64,000 bases of DNA from Psychromicrobium silvestre (GTDB lineage: Bacteria > Actinomycetota > Actinomycetes > Actinomycetales > Micrococcaceae): positions 124,001 to 188,000 of the forward strand of contig NZ_JACBYQ010000001.1 of the NCBI RefSeq assembly GCF_013408295.1, in the 5' to 3' direction. Below the pieces are notes generated by a model. The model worked only from the letters and a program-made list of their open reading frames with translations, did not search any database and was not told where the DNA came from. Shown in pieces: positions 17,009 through 23,521 of the stretch. The translations under genes were made by a program, and so were the position numbers. Numbering within the stretch: the stretch's first letter is position 1; each line of letters begins with the position of its first letter.

Positions 17009-17713
17009 CTAACCTACCGGCAGTGCTTCTGGTGCGCTCCAGCTCACCGGAACATGACGCATTACCAGCGCGCTATCGAGGGCGACGGCGGCCGTCGGCA
17101 AGGCTTCGAAAAAGGAAGATCGCAGCTCCAAGACTTCACCGGGCTCGGTCCTCCATCGATCTGTCTGCAGCTTCATGTCTTCGAAACGACCCGTTTGCCG
17201 GGCGGGTGACCAGCCGGTGCAGCCTTGCTGGAAAAATTGCGAGGCTTCCTCGGGACTGCTGAACAGCTCACTGCGCCAGGTGCCACCAAGAGCCACTTCC
17301 GTTTTGATCCGAGCCTGCCGGGAGGACATCTGCACCTTGAAATGCGAGTCCTTTTCGGAGACTTTGAAGTTGGCGTGTTGGTGCACCCCGGGGAACAGTC
17401 TGCCCCCGGCCAGCACGGGGAGCCAAGAGCCGCTGTGCCGTTGCAGGATAAAGACTCCGGACTCGGGCCCGGCCTGCCCGTCCCATTCAACGGCGATTCG
17501 ATGGGCCGAATTCTCCGCCCGCCAACCAATACGCTGGGGGAGTCCAGTCGGTCGGAGAGAGCCCAGGCGGATCAGGCAAATCCCGGCTACCGCCTCACCC
17601 CGCACCAGTTGCGGTCGGAATGGAGACGGCAACAGTCGTCGAGCTAGGGCAGGGTCAAGCCGGTAGTTGATGAGGAGCCGTCGTTCGACGATGGATTCTA
17701 AGGACAGTGCCAT
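17009..17713 (-). CDS. DUF2071 (acetoacetate-decarboxylase-like fold) protein
   Basis: A 234-residue protein of the DUF2071 family, with an acetoacetate-decarboxylase-like beta fold. It begins ERRLLINYRLDPALARRLLPSPFRPQLV, continues AVAGICLIRLGSLRP, and later has FQQGCTGWSPARQTGRFEDMKL. The catalytic Lys of true decarboxylases cannot be confirmed. ATG at 17713 is preferred to an upstream TTG at 17725. It is the first gene of the hexosaminidase operon; its role there is unknown. Confidence 0.78.
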   Translation of the reverse strand: MALSLESIVERRLLINYRLDPALARRLLPSPFRPQLVRGEAVAGICLIRLGSLRPTGLPQRIGWRAENSAHRIAVEWDGQAGPESGVFILQRHSGSWLPVLAGGRLFPGVHQHANFKVSEKDSHFKVQMSSRQARIKTEVALGGTWRSELFSSPEEASQFFQQGCTGWSPARQTGRFEDMKLQTDRWRTEPGEVLELRSSFFEALPTAAVALDSALVMRHVPVSWSAPEALPVG

Positions 17714-17978
17714 TGCTCCAGTCAACAGCTAACGAACGATCATTTTTGAACGCTCAACCCCACTTTTGCCCGGCGGTTGCGCCGCAGCAATATTGCTCCG
17801 ATTCCACACATTGATGGCCGCAATGGATAACACCAGGGAAGGGTGCTCTTCCTCGGTGTAAAACTCGGTGTAAAAAGAGGACACCTGAGGTCATAGCCCA
17901 TAGCCCAAAGCGCATCCGGGACCAGATCGGCTTGGTCAGCAATCCGAGTCAGGGCTCCTGGAACGGTGATAGCGGGTA
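17714..17978. other. Intergenic stretch with short direct repeat
   Basis: About 265 bp between the DUF2071 and LtrA genes. It contains a 12-bp direct repeat CTCGGTGTAAAA in tandem (near 17850-17880). The frames that stay open here have no family resemblance and no ribosome site. I see no gene; it may include the promoter of the DUF2071 operon. Confidence 0.4.
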
Positions 17979-19253
17979 TCAGGCAATACTTTGCGCCTTC
18001 TGGATGCTGCCAGCAACTTGGGTATCGAGGGCACGCCAGCCACCGAGTTCGTACGATACGACCACGGCGACCGGGGATAGCACTACGGCGAGTAAGCACA
18101 CCCACAGCGGCCAATCCGCTGCAGCAAGGAGTATCCCCAGCACCGGCAAAGCGAGAGTTCCTGCCTGCAGGACGGCGTGCTTCGGAAGTCCGGAGACGAG
18201 CCAGGCATGGAGCAGGTAAAGCCCGGCCATAAAAACCAGCACCGGAATGGCAACAGCCCAGATCGCAGTGAGAGTGCTGAGGTGGTAATGCTCATCGTAA
18301 ACATAGGCAATTACGTGCAGCCCCGCACCCACAGCGGCAATCGCTGCGAAGACGACAATGTGCCCGTACCCCCAAGCCGTTATTTTTTCCCGTCGAGCCG
18401 CCAGAACCGGAGCGCTCGGAACGAGGAAGTAAACCCACCAGAGCGCGAAGGTCATCACCACGCCGAGTCCGATCACCATCACCGTTGAAAAGGTCCAGCC
18501 CTCGGCATCAGAGATCGCTTGGGATGCTGCGAGGGTGCCCATCACGGTCTCACCGAGCGCGATGATCGCCAGTAGGGAATAGCGTTCGGCGATGTGATGG
18601 GCATGCCAAGGGGTCGCGCCGTCGTGTCGAACCGCCTTGGACTCCGCAATAATCGGGCCCATCCAGTCGATGGCGGCCACCACAATGGCGCAGATCAGGA
18701 ACTCGATAGGGCCAAGGGGAAGCAGAATGAGGGCAACCCAACCTAGCTGGGCCACGCCAATGAAGATGACATAAGTCATGGCCACCCTGCTGAATTGCGG
18801 ATTGCCTTTGGCTGCGCGCAACCATTGTGCGATAACCGCGACGCGCATGATGACATAGCCCGCGACCATGACCTCGTTTGCCACCGCCTCACCATGCTCA
18901 ATAGAGGCGAACATTTGGGGGAGGCCGATGGCTAAGACAATGACTCCGACCATCTGCACCATAGTCAAAACACGGAACAACCAGTCATCGGTATCGAAGG
19001 CTGAGGCAAACCAGGAGAAGTTGATCCAGGCCCAGATAATCGCCACCATCGAAAAGGCAAAGCCACCCACGGCAGCTAAGGAGAGGTTTTCGGCGATGCC
19101 ATGGGCGAGTTCGCCGCCGGCTACGCCGAAGGCGGCCACAAAGGTTAGGTCGAAGAGCAACTCAAGCGGTGTTGCCGCGCGGTGCGACTCGTCTTGTCGA
19201 CGCCCCAACATTCGTCGTAGTCCGTGCCGGTAATAAGTGCTCGGTTCAGCCAA
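17979..19253 (-). CDS. ltrA: Low-temperature-requirement A (LtrA) family membrane protein
   Basis: A 424-residue polytopic membrane protein of the LtrA family. The diagnostic N-terminal ATPLELLFDLTFVAAFGVAGGELAH-like block is present in shorter form (TPLELLFDLTFVAAF), followed by WAWINFSWFASAFDTDDWLFR, HIAERYSLLAIIALGE and about ten hydrophobic segments. LtrA was named from a Listeria cold-growth mutant; its molecular activity is not known. The start is a TTG (TTGGCTGAACC) preceded by AAGGGGGA. It stands alone between a DUF2071 operon and an SDR gene. Confidence 0.88.
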   Translation of the reverse strand: MAEPSTYYRHGLRRMLGRRQDESHRAATPLELLFDLTFVAAFGVAGGELAHGIAENLSLAAVGGFAFSMVAIIWAWINFSWFASAFDTDDWLFRVLTMVQMVGVIVLAIGLPQMFASIEHGEAVANEVMVAGYVIMRVAVIAQWLRAAKGNPQFSRVAMTYVIFIGVAQLGWVALILLPLGPIEFLICAIVVAAIDWMGPIIAESKAVRHDGATPWHAHHIAERYSLLAIIALGETVMGTLAASQAISDAEGWTFSTVMVIGLGVVMTFALWWVYFLVPSAPVLAARREKITAWGYGHIVVFAAIAAVGAGLHVIAYVYDEHYHLSTLTAIWAVAIPVLVFMAGLYLLHAWLVSGLPKHAVLQAGTLALPVLGILLAAADWPLWVCLLAVVLSPVAVVVSYELGGWRALDTQVAGSIQKAQSIA

Positions 19254-19295
19254 AATTCCCCCTTATGAATGGCTCAAAATATTACGCTAATGCCC

Positions 19296-20075
19296 TCAGC
19301 GGGTGCTATAGCGGGTAGCTAGCTCATGGCTTTGCGAGCCAAAAGCGACCAGATCCGCATCGAAAACGGCTTGAAGTACGCCATAGTCGTCCACCCCTGG
19401 GGCGCACACCACTTCGCCGAGTTCTAAGCCGCGCATAGCGCCGGTAACCACCTCGGAGGCGCTCATCCTGGGGATTGAGGAGAGGTCCATGCCCTGAACG
19501 GTGTGGAACTCGGTGGCCACCACGCCGGGGCAAACTACTTGTACCCGGACGCCGGTTCCTTCTAGTTCAGCGCTGAGAGTTTGGGACATCGCCACTAGAT
19601 GAGCCAGCGTTCCGGTGTAGACGGCCCGCCGCGGCATTTGTGAACTCGGGGCTGGACCGGAGAAGGCGATCATGCCGGCCACGTTGATGATAGTCCCCGA
19701 AGAGCGAGTGAGCATTCCCGGAACGGCAGCATGAGTGAGCATGGTCGGCGCTACAACTTTGACGTTCACCAGTTCGCGGGCTTGCTCGGCGGAGAGCTCC
19801 GAGATCGGCATATAGTGCGCCACTCCGGCATTGTTCACCAGTAGCGTGAGAGGCTGGCTGGCACATAGTTCTGCCACCGAGTTGAGGCCATCATCGGTGG
19901 CTAGGTCAGCGACCACAACCCGGACCTTCACCTCCGTAAGCGAAGCCGCGAGCTCCTCGAGCCGGTCCTTGCGACGGCCCACGACGATCAAATCGTAGCC
20001 CTCGGCGGCGAGGTATTCAGCGAACGCTTTGCCGATACCCGAAGAGGCTCCGGTGACGAGTGCGAGTTGAGACAT
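19296..20075 (-). CDS. Short-chain dehydrogenase-like protein with altered catalytic residues
   Basis: A 259-residue SDR fold. The cofactor motif TGASSGIG (8-15) and the VNNAGVA motif (80-86) are intact. The active site is not: Tyr153 is present (AVYTGTL) but the Lys expected four residues later is Leu157, and the usual Ser is Gly134 in NVAGMIAF. It may bind NAD(P)H without normal SDR chemistry or use other residues. ATG at 20075 has GGAAG upstream. It lies 74 bp behind the NAD(P)-binding gene at 20150-20788 and so may belong to the sigma factor's regulon. Confidence 0.82.
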   Translation of the reverse strand: MSQLALVTGASSGIGKAFAEYLAAEGYDLIVVGRRKDRLEELAASLTEVKVRVVVADLATDDGLNSVAELCASQPLTLLVNNAGVAHYMPISELSAEQARELVNVKVVAPTMLTHAAVPGMLTRSSGTIINVAGMIAFSGPAPSSQMPRRAVYTGTLAHLVAMSQTLSAELEGTGVRVQVVCPGVVATEFHTVQGMDLSSIPRMSASEVVTGAMRGLELGEVVCAPGVDDYGVLQAVFDADLVAFGSQSHELATRYSTR

Positions 20076-20149
20076 GAGAATCTTCCTTTGCAATAAACTT
20101 GGCAACGTGAAGCGATGAGTGAGGGCAAACGTTGGAGCCTGGAGAAGCC

Positions 20150-20788
20150 CTAATAAGCCACTCCCACCGGGTGCCGGAAAGTGGCTGGATCGTCAATCAT
20201 GGACAGCATGGCAGCGGCCACATCGGCTCGGCCGATGCTGCTAGCCGCACGCGGATTGCCGTCGATCGCGCTTCGGTAGTTACCCCGCAGGGGCTTATCC
20301 AGCAGCCTGGGCGGTCGTACCGAGGTCCAGTCCAAGTTGCTGCTGGCCAGTTCCGCCTCCATTGCCCGCAAATCGTCATAGTTCCCCTTTAGGATTGCGC
20401 TAATCAGTGGGGTGGCGATCTTGGCTAGCCAGAACGGTTCATCTACCGGCGTCGGCCCCAGCGGTGCCGCGCTGACCACTAATAGCCGCTTAACGCTCTC
20501 CGCCTCCATCGCTTGCACTATGGCCCGGGTGAGTGGGGTGGTAATCCCGGCGTCCTTGCGGCTGCGCGGCCCTAAACCGGAAAGCACCGCCTGCCGCCCG
20601 GCCACTGCGCGCCGAAGGTTCTCGACGTCGTCGCGCACCGGGGAGCCAAAGACCTGCAAACCCGCGCCGGTCAGCGGAAAGTCCCCGGGCTGGCGAACCA
20701 CCGCGGTCACCTGATGCCCGGCCGCCAGAGCCTGGGAAACCAACTGCTGGCCGATCCTGCCGCTTGCCCCAAATATTGTCAGTTCCAT
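20150..20788 (-). CDS. NAD(P)-binding epimerase/NmrA-like protein
   Basis: A 212-residue atypical SDR of the NAD(P)H-binding/NmrA type. The N-terminal glycine motif MELTIFGASGRIGQQLV is followed by VTAVVRQPG, AVLSGLGPRSR, and a C-terminal NLDWTSVRPPRLLD. It lacks a classic YxxxK pair, as is usual in this group. Its promoter on the minus strand (20861-20835) matches the ECF41 consensus and faces the sigma gene's own promoter, so it is very likely the sigma factor's direct target. This fits the known pairing of ECF41 with oxidoreductase or epimerase genes. Confidence 0.85.
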   Translation of the reverse strand: MELTIFGASGRIGQQLVSQALAAGHQVTAVVRQPGDFPLTGAGLQVFGSPVRDDVENLRRAVAGRQAVLSGLGPRSRKDAGITTPLTRAIVQAMEAESVKRLLVVSAAPLGPTPVDEPFWLAKIATPLISAILKGNYDDLRAMEAELASSNLDWTSVRPPRLLDKPLRGNYRSAIDGNPRAASSIGRADVAAAMLSMIDDPATFRHPVGVAY

Positions 20789-20799
20789 CGTTGACTCCT

Positions 20800-20826
20800 T
20801 GTCACATTTCCTCGAATTGCTCCGTC
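20800..20826 (+). promoter_or_regulatory. ECF41-type promoter of the sigma factor gene
   Basis: TGTCACA (20800-20806) and CGTC (20823-20826) are separated by exactly 16 bp on the plus strand. This matches the published ECF41 recognition pattern. It reads into the sigma gene at 20863, implying autoregulation. Confidence 0.85.
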
Positions 20827-20834
20827 ACTACAAT

Positions 20835-20861
20835 GACGGATAAGAGCGAAGGAATGTGACA
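20835..20861 (-). promoter_or_regulatory. ECF41-type promoter of the epimerase-like gene
   Basis: On the minus strand TGTCACA (complement of 20855-20861) and CGTC (complement of 20835-20838) are also 16 bp apart. It reads toward the gene at 20788 and partly overlaps the sigma gene's leader. The pair is a back-to-back arrangement in 62 bp. Confidence 0.85.
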
Positions 20862-20862
20862 G

Positions 20863-21780
20863 ATGAATCAGAATCTCTTGGCTGGGCAGTTCGAACAGGC
20901 CAGGCCGCGGCTCCGGGCGCTCGCCTACCGGATGCTCGGATCGCTCAGTGAAGCGGACGACGCCGTTCAGGAGGCTTGGCTGCGGCTGTCCCGTACCAGC
21001 GGCTCCGAGCAGGCGGAACAGATCGACAACCTTGACGGCTGGTTGACCACGGTGCTCGGACGGATTTGCCTGGATTTTCTCCGCAGCCGTTCTTCACGGC
21101 GGGAACAACCCTGGGAGGCAGGGGAGGAGCCGGAAGGCTACAGCGGGGTGCATGTGCCGGATCCGATCCTGGAGTTTGAGGAAAAGAGCAATCCGGAGCA
21201 TCAGGCGCTGCTGGCCGACTCGGTTGGACTGGCGCTCCTGGTGGTGCTGGAGACCCTGCCGCCCGCCGAACGGCTAGCCTTTGTGCTACACGACGTTTTC
21301 GCGCTTCCTTTCGAGGAAATCGCAGACATTGTGGACAAGACTCCGGCGGCCGCCCGCCAACTGGCCAGCCGGGCCCGTCGCAAGGTGCAGAGCACCGCAA
21401 ATACTCCGGACCCGGATTTGTCCCGGCAGCAACAGGTGGTCAAGGCTTTCCAAGCGGCTTCGCGCAGCGGAGATCTTGAAGCTCTAGTATCCGTACTGGA
21501 TCCGGACATTGTGCTTCGGGTGGACTATGGCCCCCGCAATAAGCAATCCAAGCGGGTGCGGGGTGCCGCCCAGGTGGCAGCTCAGGCACTCACCTTCTCC
21601 AAATTCGCGCCGTTTGCTCGGCCAGCTTTGGTCAACGGTGCGGCCGGAATGGCTACCGTCGTCGAAGGCAAATTGTTTTCCGTGACGGGCTTTACGGTGG
21701 CCGATGGCAAGGTTCAGGCGATAGACATCCTGGCCGATCCACTGCGACTGAGCCAACTAGAGTTGCCACAGCGCGAGTAG
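20863..21780 (+). CDS. ECF sigma factor with SnoaL-like C-terminal domain (ECF41/ECF56-like)
   Basis: A 305-residue extracytoplasmic-function sigma factor. Region 2 is ARPRLRALAYRMLGSLSEADDAVQEAWLRL and region 4 is LPPAERLAFVLHDVFALPFEEIADIVDKTPAAARQLASRARRKV. A fused SnoaL/NTF2-like domain follows from about residue 190 (VVKAFQAASRSGDLEALVSVLDPD). In ECF41 this extension replaces an anti-sigma factor and controls activity from within. The usual linker DGGGK is VDYGPRNK here, so a neighbouring subgroup such as ECF56 is possible. Its own promoter and that of the divergent NAD(P)-binding gene both match ECF41. The signal is unknown. Confidence 0.9.
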   Translation: MNQNLLAGQFEQARPRLRALAYRMLGSLSEADDAVQEAWLRLSRTSGSEQAEQIDNLDGWLTTVLGRICLDFLRSRSSRREQPWEAGEEPEGYSGVHVPDPILEFEEKSNPEHQALLADSVGLALLVVLETLPPAERLAFVLHDVFALPFEEIADIVDKTPAAARQLASRARRKVQSTANTPDPDLSRQQQVVKAFQAASRSGDLEALVSVLDPDIVLRVDYGPRNKQSKRVRGAAQVAAQALTFSKFAPFARPALVNGAAGMATVVEGKLFSVTGFTVADGKVQAIDILADPLRLSQLELPQRE

Positions 21781-21791
21781 AGTTCCTGTTG

Positions 21792-22592
21792 ATGCTTTCT
21801 CATGCCCAGATCACCGATAGATTGCGTGCGGCAGGTTGCGTTTTTGCCGAGGAGGAAGCCGACTTGCTGCTCTCCACCAGCCAGGACCTAGCCGAGCTGG
21901 AGGAACTGGTGAGACGCCGGGCTGAGGGCTTTCCGCTGGAGTATTTGCTGGGCTGGGCAGAATTCTGCGGACTGCGGATCGCCGTCACTCCAGGGGTGTT
22001 TGTGCCTCGTCGCCGAACCGAGTTCTTGGCGGCTCAGGCGATTGAATTGGCGCAGCGAGCTGAAACTGCCGTGCTGCTTGATCTGTGCTGCGGTGCCGGG
22101 GCAGTGGCGGCCGCCGTTGCTGCCGCTTTGCCCGGGGTGGAGTTGTACGCGGCCGATATCGACCCCGAAGCGGTGGGATGCGCCAGGCGTAACCTGAGCG
22201 ATCCGGGAAACGGAACGGTTACCCGGGTTTTCGAAGGCGATCTTTTCGCCCCGCTGCCGGACTCACTGGCCGGCAGGATCAACGTGATCGCGGTCAATGC
22301 ACCCTATGTGCCCACCGAGGAGATCGCGTTGATGCCCCCAGAGGCTCGATTGTATGAAGCCAGGGCAGCGCTCGACGGCGGCACGGACGGTTTACAGGTA
22401 CAGCGCCGGATCGCTGCCGAGGCTTCGCGCTGGCTGGCCCCCGAGGGGCATCTGCTGATTGAGACCAGTGAACGACAGGCACCGCAGACAGCCGAAATCT
22501 TCGCGGCCCGAGGGCTGAAACCGCAGATCCTTGAATCCGAGGAGTTCTACGCCACCGTGGTCATCGGAAAGAAAGCAGGGCAACGGCAATGA
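21792..22592 (+). CDS. PrmC/HemK-like N5-glutamine methyltransferase family protein
   Basis: A 266-residue SAM-dependent methyltransferase. It shows the HemK-type N-terminal segment (RRRAEGFPLEYLLGWAEFCGLRI), the SAM-binding motif LLDLCCGAGAVAAAVA, an acidic strand YAADIDPEA and, in place of the family's NPPY, NAPYVPT. The Ala substitution makes it a paralogue rather than the main release-factor methylase, which is normally near prfA. A TTG at 21789 is an alternative start. It is 11 bp behind the sigma gene and its stop overlaps the ribokinase start by 4 bp. Confidence 0.8.
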   Translation: MLSHAQITDRLRAAGCVFAEEEADLLLSTSQDLAELEELVRRRAEGFPLEYLLGWAEFCGLRIAVTPGVFVPRRRTEFLAAQAIELAQRAETAVLLDLCCGAGAVAAAVAAALPGVELYAADIDPEAVGCARRNLSDPGNGTVTRVFEGDLFAPLPDSLAGRINVIAVNAPYVPTEEIALMPPEARLYEARAALDGGTDGLQVQRRIAAEASRWLAPEGHLLIETSERQAPQTAEIFAARGLKPQILESEEFYATVVIGKKAGQRQ

Positions 22593-23521
22593 GCATCGTG
22601 GTGCTGGGCAGCGCTAATTTAGATCTGGTGTACCGGGTGCAGAACATTCCGGGGCCGGGGGAGACCGTACTGGCAGCTAGCCGGGCTAGCCACCCCGGCG
22701 GCAAGGGCAATAATCAGGCCACCGCAGCCGTGAGGGCAGGAGCTGCCGCCAGTTTCATCGTCTCGGTGGGTCAGGACGAGGCCGGGGCGATGTTGCTGGA
22801 CGGGCTCGAGAGTGATGGCGTGAGAGTCAGCGCTCGCCGGGTTACGGAACCCACTGGCACCGCCCTGATCACGGTGGCGGATTCCGGGGAGAACAGCATC
22901 GTGGTGGATTCGGGAGCTAATTCCTTGCTCGCCGAGCTCACCGAGACGGAGCTCGGAATCATCGAAGAAGCCGGAATTTTGCTGATGCAGCTGGAAGTGC
23001 CGGTGGAAACCGTCGGCCGAGCCGCCGCCGTCGCCCACGCCGCAGGCGCTCTTGTGGTACTGAATGCAGCACCAATCCGGGAGCTGGAAGCCGAGTTGTT
23101 GGCCGCCGTCGACCTCTTAATTGTTAACGAACACGAAGCGTTTCGGCTGCTCGCCGATACCGGCCTCCAGGCCACCGAGGCGACGGTAGCGGCCGAACTT
23201 TTGCTTGAGCTGGTGCCTGCGGTGATTATCACCCTGGGGGCGGCGGGGGCGTTGGTGGCCGAACGAGGCAAATCTGTGCGGACCGTTCCTGCCTTTGAGG
23301 TAACGGCGGTGGACACTACGGGAGCCGGAGACACCTTCTGCGGCGCATTGGTTGCTGCGCTGGAAGCGCAACGGGAGGCCGGTGCCAACGATCTTGAGCT
23401 GGAGAGTGCGGCGCGTTTCGCTAGTGCTGCGGCGGCAATCTCGGTACAGCGGGCGGGTGCGGTGCCATCCATTCCCGGACGTCAAGAGATTGAAGACTTT
23501 CTTGGGCATCGACAATCCTAG
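22589..23521 (+). CDS. rbsK: Ribokinase / PfkB-family sugar kinase
   Basis: A 310-residue PfkB-family kinase that most likely phosphorylates ribose at O5. It has the first signature GGKGNNQATAAVRAG, the segment LIVNEHEA and the ATP/anion-hole motif DTTGAGDTFCGALVAAL with the catalytic Asp in GAGD. The ATG overlaps the methyltransferase stop. No ribose transporter genes are adjacent, so the substrate could be another sugar or a nucleoside-derived ribose; length and motifs fit ribokinase best. Confidence 0.85.
   Translation: MSIVVLGSANLDLVYRVQNIPGPGETVLAASRASHPGGKGNNQATAAVRAGAAASFIVSVGQDEAGAMLLDGLESDGVRVSARRVTEPTGTALITVADSGENSIVVDSGANSLLAELTETELGIIEEAGILLMQLEVPVETVGRAAAVAHAAGALVVLNAAPIRELEAELLAAVDLLIVNEHEAFRLLADTGLQATEATVAAELLLELVPAVIITLGAAGALVAERGKSVRTVPAFEVTAVDTTGAGDTFCGALVAALEAQREAGANDLELESAARFASAAAAISVQRAGAVPSIPGRQEIEDFLGHRQS

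Follow-up and report, generated by a model that had tools for sequence, protein, structure and literature searches.

A 62-bp element (20800..20861) in the window, by which we mean the whole 64,000-nucleotide stretch of Psychromicrobium silvestre DNA that was analysed, reads TGTCACA-N16-CGTC-N8-GACG-N16-TGTGACA (motif scan, matched 62-mer) and brings together two copies of the ECF41 promoter motif face-to-face between a sigma factor gene and a divergent enzyme gene. Both the motif and this geometry are conserved across genomes and are linked to a family of related sigma factors. From this we infer, with a probability of roughly three in four, that the element functions as a symmetric, autoregulated bidirectional promoter, recognized by the sigma factor that it serves, with divergent start sites and with directions that are mutually exclusive.

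Architecture of the Element

An exact motif scan of the window places one copy of TGTCACA-N16-CGTC on the plus strand at 20800-20826 (TGTCACATTTCCTCGAATTGCTCCGTC) and one on the minus strand at 20835-20861 (TGTCACATTCCTTCGCTCTTATCCGTC), each with a spacer of 16 bp and each in perfect consensus. The plus-strand copy forms the sigma-directed promoter (20800..20826; -35 at 20800-20806, -10 at 20823-20826), while the minus-strand copy forms the enzyme-directed, or COE-directed, promoter (20835..20861; -35 at 20855-20861, -10 at 20835-20838). The first-pass annotation had located both copies exactly, with their strands, their 16-bp spacers and the genes that they face, and rightly spoke of a symmetrical overlap. 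Its label 'back-to-back', however, is contradicted by the coordinates: the -35 boxes lie outermost and the -10 boxes innermost, so that the promoters point towards each other across a gap of 8 bp between the two -10 elements (20827..20834). The ATGs of the two genes are 74 bp apart and each -35 falls within the leader of the other gene. On the plus strand, TGTGACA, the opposing -35, sits between AGGA (20850..20853), the likely ribosome-binding site of the sigma gene, and the sigma ATG at 20863, and on the minus strand AAGGAG (20795..20800), the likely ribosome-binding site of the enzyme gene (ATG 20788), shares one base with the -35 of the sigma promoter.

When spacers of 14-19 bp are allowed, the window contains three exact matches against 0.18 expected from shuffles, and none of 100 shuffles reached three. 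A single match is not rare, since one or more with a spacer of 16 bp occur in 66 of 149 family genomes and a backwards control pattern also scores in many of them; the significance rests on the pair within 62 bp and not on the single match. The organism's own genome (3.17 Mb) yields three matches with spacers of 15-17 bp, and two for the backwards control. A wider regulon in this genome, which the first-pass annotation had proposed to trace by a search for further sites, is rejected, as there is one further exact match only (L003, C2:58382-58408), which lies inside a coding sequence read as a transaldolase and is probably due to chance.

Genes at the Locus

The sigma gene (20863..21780, plus strand) encodes a SigJ-like ECF sigma factor of 305 aa with a SnoaL/NTF2-type C-terminal extension, as found by profile searches and by alignment to the solved SigJ 5xe7 (E 2.9e-42, residues 7-302). 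Its partner on the minus strand (20150..20788) is an NAD(P)H-binding protein of 212 aa, identified by profile search (NAD_binding_10, 140.5 bits; NmrA, 39.3 bits, cut-off 27) and belonging to the 'epimerase' class of partners, in agreement with the reading of the first-pass annotation. No homologue of this protein was found at E 1e-8 in the comparison loci, nor at E 1e-30 in 119 other family genomes. Also on the minus strand, 44 bp downstream of the partner gene, lies a short-chain dehydrogenase (SDR; 19296..20105, profile searches), whose open reading frame opens with TTG at 20105, although an ATG at 20075 is the likelier start and would make the distance 74 bp. Co-transcription of the SDR with the NAD(P)-binding gene is plausible from this layout, given the common strand, the short distance, the lack of any ECF41 motif or sigma-70-like promoter in a search of the interval, and a terminator-like stem at the SDR end (19285..19301, minus strand), a kind of site that is not enriched above shuffles here (2 found, mean 3.2). 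Further downstream on the same strand, the open reading frames 17979-19253 and 17009-17725 have no NCBIfam match at E 0.001.

Class of the Sigma Factor

Judged by its sequence, the window sigma factor is ECF41-like and not a textbook ECF41 member. Several of the features by which ECF41 is recognized are present. The alignment to SigJ continues up to residue 302 and thus covers a C-terminal extension of ~100 aa of the SnoaL/NTF2 type; the promoter TGTCACA-N16(+/-1)-CGTC occurs in two exact copies; the neighbour belongs to the COE partners, among which epimerases are defined by an NmrA or Epimerase Pfam domain; and no obvious anti-sigma gene adjoins the sigma gene among the four neighbours searched (the NAD(P)-binding, SDR, PrmC-like and ribokinase-like proteins). 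Two profile scores fall below their cut-offs, with 21.2 against a cut-off of 27 for Pfam SnoaL_2 and 259.3 bits against a curated cut-off of 271 for the SigJ subfamily NF007214, the best-scoring model listed.

The named sequence motifs are missing. WLPEP in the linker between sigma2 and sigma4 is replaced by HVPDP in the window sigma factor, whereas M. tuberculosis SigJ (5xe7), whose homology over residues 7-302 takes in the C-terminal part, carries WLPEP at the aligned place in its linker. DGGG is one of the C-terminal motifs of ECF41. Together with NPDKL, another such motif (PMC7730460), it is absent from the window sigma factor and from its same-genus relative (L014), which also lacks WLPEP. 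Among the homologues at face-to-face loci elsewhere, WLPEP occurs in 1 of 93 (L059, gap 9), DGGG in 0 of 93 and NP[DE]K, for which the final 60 residues were searched, in 0 of 93. These counts derive from 113 extracted sigma proteins, of which 98 measuring 240-380 aa were used in an initial motif count and in the tree; five of the 98 (L069, L072, L111, L131, L145) are non-homologous, probably wrong frames, and the motif counts use the remaining 93. RpoE9, the positive control, has WLPDP, DGGGK and NPDKL. Because WLPEP, DGGG and NPDKL are missing from the window sigma factor and from 92 of the 93 homologues, the face-to-face set appears to form a sister group to classical ECF41 with a promoter common to both. 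The ECF41 assignment of the first-pass annotation thus stands as regards promoter, partner and C-terminal extension, and falls short as regards the SigJ cut-off and the classical motifs.

Conservation of the Geometry Across Genomes

A DNA-only scan for facing pairs with exact boxes, both spacers fixed at 16 bp and a gap of 0-30 bp returned at least 118 loci, against a chance expectation of about 0.45 matches in the whole 257 Gb at equal base frequencies. Among the 118 matches listed, the gap is 8 bp in 113, 9 bp in three, 11 bp in one and 12 bp in one, and at the level of genera 56 of 59 units have a gap of 8 bp. They span at least eight phyla or candidate phyla, with 77 matches in Actinomycetota, 28 in Pseudomonadota, seven in Acidobacteriota, two in Chloroflexota and one each in Myxococcota, Verrucomicrobiota, Nitrospirota and FCPU426; one of the matches (L058) is on pRL11 of Rhizobium johnstonii 3841. 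A sigma homologue in the right orientation stands beside 114 of the 118 (tblastn, E up to 1e-3, within 400 bp); at the other four none was detected by this search, and two of these lie at the very end of the available stretch. In 297 genomes of the window's order, a sample that may share species with the 118-locus scan, relaxed boxes match in seven genomes including that of the window, with a gap of 8 bp in all seven, and the backwards control in one.

An even sample of the phylum (396 genomes) contains a facing pair in two genomes, namely the window (gap 8) and one other (gap 11), which is too sparse to give a frequency for the face-to-face form. The same 396 genomes contain seven back-to-back pairs in six genomes, taken by DNA motif alone, with -35 gaps, worked out from the matches, of 6, 11, 11, 12, 16, 24 and 30 bp. 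Facing pairs are thus the rarer form in this sample (two against six genomes), which counts against the bidirectional reading; back-to-back pairs are not rarer than facing pairs, but their spacing is not fixed.

The gap is kept in length and not in sequence, since its inner positions are nearly free. Among the matches listed, the flanks read CGTCA-N6-TGACG in 77% and 82% of 109, the six inner positions carry 0.07-0.21 bit with 86 distinct hexamers in 113, and the 40 free positions of the element have a mean identity of 41%. One could read the element as two ordinary, independent ECF41 promoters that overlap in a short intergenic region, with an 8-bp gap that simply follows from compact leaders or from descent. 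We consider this unlikely, although the intergenic region is indeed compact at 74 bp between the ATGs, the element travels with the sigma gene, and in 81 of 113 of the listed loci the sigma gene begins -1 to 3 nt beyond the element (automatic start choice). Against it, the distance between the element and the enzyme start ranges from 9 to 139 nt (likewise listed matches and automatic choice) while the gap stays at 8 bp, so that tight leaders on both sides do not dictate the gap, and the length is kept across at least eight phyla despite the low identity of the free positions. In a quick tree of the sigma proteins, which includes the five false rows at meaningless places and has many weak forks, four of the five non-8 gaps (L045, L059, L085, L141) are scattered, the fifth (L137) having been left out, which also speaks against independent promoters; from this scatter the gap of 8 bp looks ancestral and kept. 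Part of this constancy may be due to common descent.

Predicted Start Sites and Proposed Mechanism

The number eight can be related to the position of the transcription start. An ECF41 start site in S. meliloti lies 9 nt after the motif (PMC3616915), where the sequence has a G, with 32 nt between CGTC and the ATG. For other ECF41 genes, G starts are reported with leaders of 22/23 nt, and Table 5 of the same paper gives 31/32 nt for the same genes (PMC3426412); the difference of nine would fit the same start position if Table 5 counts from the motif. Carried over to the window, this spacing predicts a +1 G at 20835 on the plus strand for the sigma transcript (9 nt after CGTC, leader 28 nt) and a +1 G at 20826 on the minus strand for the enzyme transcript (leader 38 nt). 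At a gap of 8 bp, nucleotide 9 after CGTC is the G of the opposing GACG, and each predicted +1 therefore coincides with the terminal base pair of the -10 opposite. The predicted start sites are 9 bp apart (10 bp counted inclusively); at E. coli bidirectional promoters the commonest distances between divergent start sites are 10, 18, and 23 bp (PMC12825309). By analogy with the mapped ECF41 starts, the coincidence of start site and opposing -10 would explain why the gap is eight.

In the mechanism that we propose, active sigma factor with core polymerase would engage the 62-bp element in one of two orientations. One would lead to transcription of the sigma gene, that is, to positive autoregulation, and the other to transcription of the NAD(P)-binding enzyme gene and perhaps of the SDR, which the first-pass annotation had already suggested as part of the regulon. 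The footprints of the two orientations would overlap almost entirely, and the two firing events would for this reason exclude each other. Whichever the orientation, CGTC-N8-GACG could melt as one shared bubble. The SnoaL-type C-terminal extension presumably holds the sigma factor inactive until a signal arrives, and activation probably proceeds via this domain, as reported for ECF41. At E. coli sigma-70 bidirectional promoters, competition is absent at basal activity and appears once one direction is strongly activated (PMC12825309), so that at the window element, likewise, competition may come into play only with the sigma factor active. The analogy with ECF41 is the weaker as regards recognition, because the window sigma factor lacks the classical motifs. 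A more far-reaching version, which we hold tentatively and at somewhat below even odds, is that each transcript takes its +1 G from the opposing -10, that a single symmetric region of 16 bp is melted either way, and that the 8-bp spacing has been selected across phyla as the coupled, mutually exclusive output of a WLPEP-less, ECF41-like group, while the enzyme partner behind it was exchanged.

Should the geometry prove functional, an alternative sigma factor would have a promoter with two directions built in and subject to a spacing rule. If the proposed exclusion is true, the element would also be a natural example of self-competition, the activator of both genes contending with itself for a single site. 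According to the authors of the E. coli study, nothing was known about the control of bidirectional promoters (PMC12825309), for which the window element is a candidate with an exact and conserved form. As a DNA signature of 62 bp that can be written in one line, it finds this sigma group and the partner enzymes without protein searches.

Relation to Known Systems

The type of locus is already known, as both the motif and its pairing with NmrA/epimerase-type partners have been published for ECF41 (PMC3426412), in line with what the first-pass annotation had stated on the motif and the partner genes. In that work the promoter motif was defined, two start sites were mapped and activation was tested (Wecke, 2012; PMC3426412). 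The R. sphaeroides promoter, to which the window motif is identical, was mapped by 5'-RACE and is activated by ECF41 sigma factors, and the B. licheniformis promoter has the same -35 with TGTT as -10 (PMC3426412). Of 55 divergent sigma/COE loci, 36 have a sigma promoter and 41 a COE promoter (PMC3426412). These ECF41/COE loci share with the window TGTCACA-N16-CGTC, a partner of the NmrA/epimerase class, the absence of an adjacent anti-sigma gene, the C-terminal extension and a divergent orientation with both promoters already reported, but the window sigma factor differs in having none of WLPEP, DGGG and NPDKL. The parts of Wecke (2012; PMC3426412) covered by this analysis have nothing on a face-to-face geometry with a fixed 8-bp gap, and no description of it was found in the open-licence literature searched, although it may be in print elsewhere. 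Within the open-licence literature searched, the invariant face-to-face form with its start-site coincidence thus appears to be an undescribed variant.

S. meliloti RpoE9, an ECF41 sigma factor, has the same promoter with the start site 9 nt after the motif, but a single promoter precedes a COE-sigma operon with a CMD partner (PMC6180224, PMC3616915), whereas the window has a divergent pair. The bidirectional promoters of E. coli (Warman et al., 2026; PMC12825309) resemble the window element in their pseudo-symmetric DNA. Divergent starts a few bp apart and mutually exclusive binding of polymerase, both described for them (same source), are likenesses that we predict for the window element. 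They depend on sigma-70 and have one shared symmetric -10 (PMC12825309), in contrast to the alternative sigma factor, the two separate CGTC -10s 8 bp apart and the full -35s on both sides of the window element, where one of the two transcripts encodes the sigma factor itself.

Related Loci and Exchange of Partners

Two-way control is not universal in the family. Upstream of the sigma gene, the best 30 family loci (the window is L013) have both facing sites with a gap of 8 bp in four cases and of 9 bp in one, the enzyme-directed site alone in 14, a back-to-back pair in five, the sigma-directed site alone in one and no site in five. This tally sets aside weak two-mismatch hits elsewhere in L020, L021, L024, L027, L029, and L030; the sigma match of L033 begins at residue 109, so that the stretch scanned is not its true upstream region. 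As 14 of the 30 keep the enzyme-directed half alone, the enzyme promoter can persist when autoregulation is lost. The same 14 loci could suggest that in the window, too, only the enzyme-directed promoter works, the sigma-directed copy being a relic and the sigma gene being expressed otherwise. This is the least probable of the readings considered, because relics should drift and both halves are perfect consensus in the window; the 118 listed loci give no evidence on this point, as the search pattern required both halves.

The survival of single halves also bears on a reading of TGTCACA...TGTGACA, which does form a long inverted repeat, as an operator for a dimeric regulator with only incidental likeness to a promoter. 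We regard this as very improbable and have rejected a palindromic operator, since one half survives alone in 14 of the best 30 family loci, a sigma homologue adjoins 114 of the 118 matches listed, and the half-site is itself a promoter mapped in R. sphaeroides, S. meliloti and, with TGTT as -10, B. licheniformis.

In the enzyme-directed-only loci (L015-L018, L020-L024, L026, L028-L030, L034) the -10 is TGTC or GGTC and the half still lies just before the sigma start codon. At L027 the sigma-directed promoter is intact and GACG is kept at a gap of 8 bp, while the opposing -35 is lost. L025, L036, L037, L038, and L041 have related sigma genes with true back-to-back motif pairs at variable distances.

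The facing bidirectional element itself has the same geometry at the same-genus locus L014 (sigma identity 65%) and, with one or two bases changed, at L031 and L032 (sigma factors 46% identical). Its partners appear to change while the promoter stays. The 110 partners extracted among the matches listed form clusters of 58, 21, 10, 8, and 2 proteins and 11 singletons, some of them wrong frames; partner reading frames and start codons were picked by script, and some of the partners are surely wrong. We take the first four clusters to be CMD/AhpD-like, NAD(P)-binding, pyridoxamine-oxidase-like, and glyoxalase-like proteins. At L014 the partner behind the same element is read as CMD-like.

On the sigma side of the window, 21789-23521 holds a PrmC-related methyltransferase gene (TIGR03704 over cut-off) and a ribokinase-like kinase gene, which overlap by 4 nt and begin 8 nt past the sigma stop codon, and both may be on the sigma transcript. 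A different reading frame follows the sigma gene in L014.
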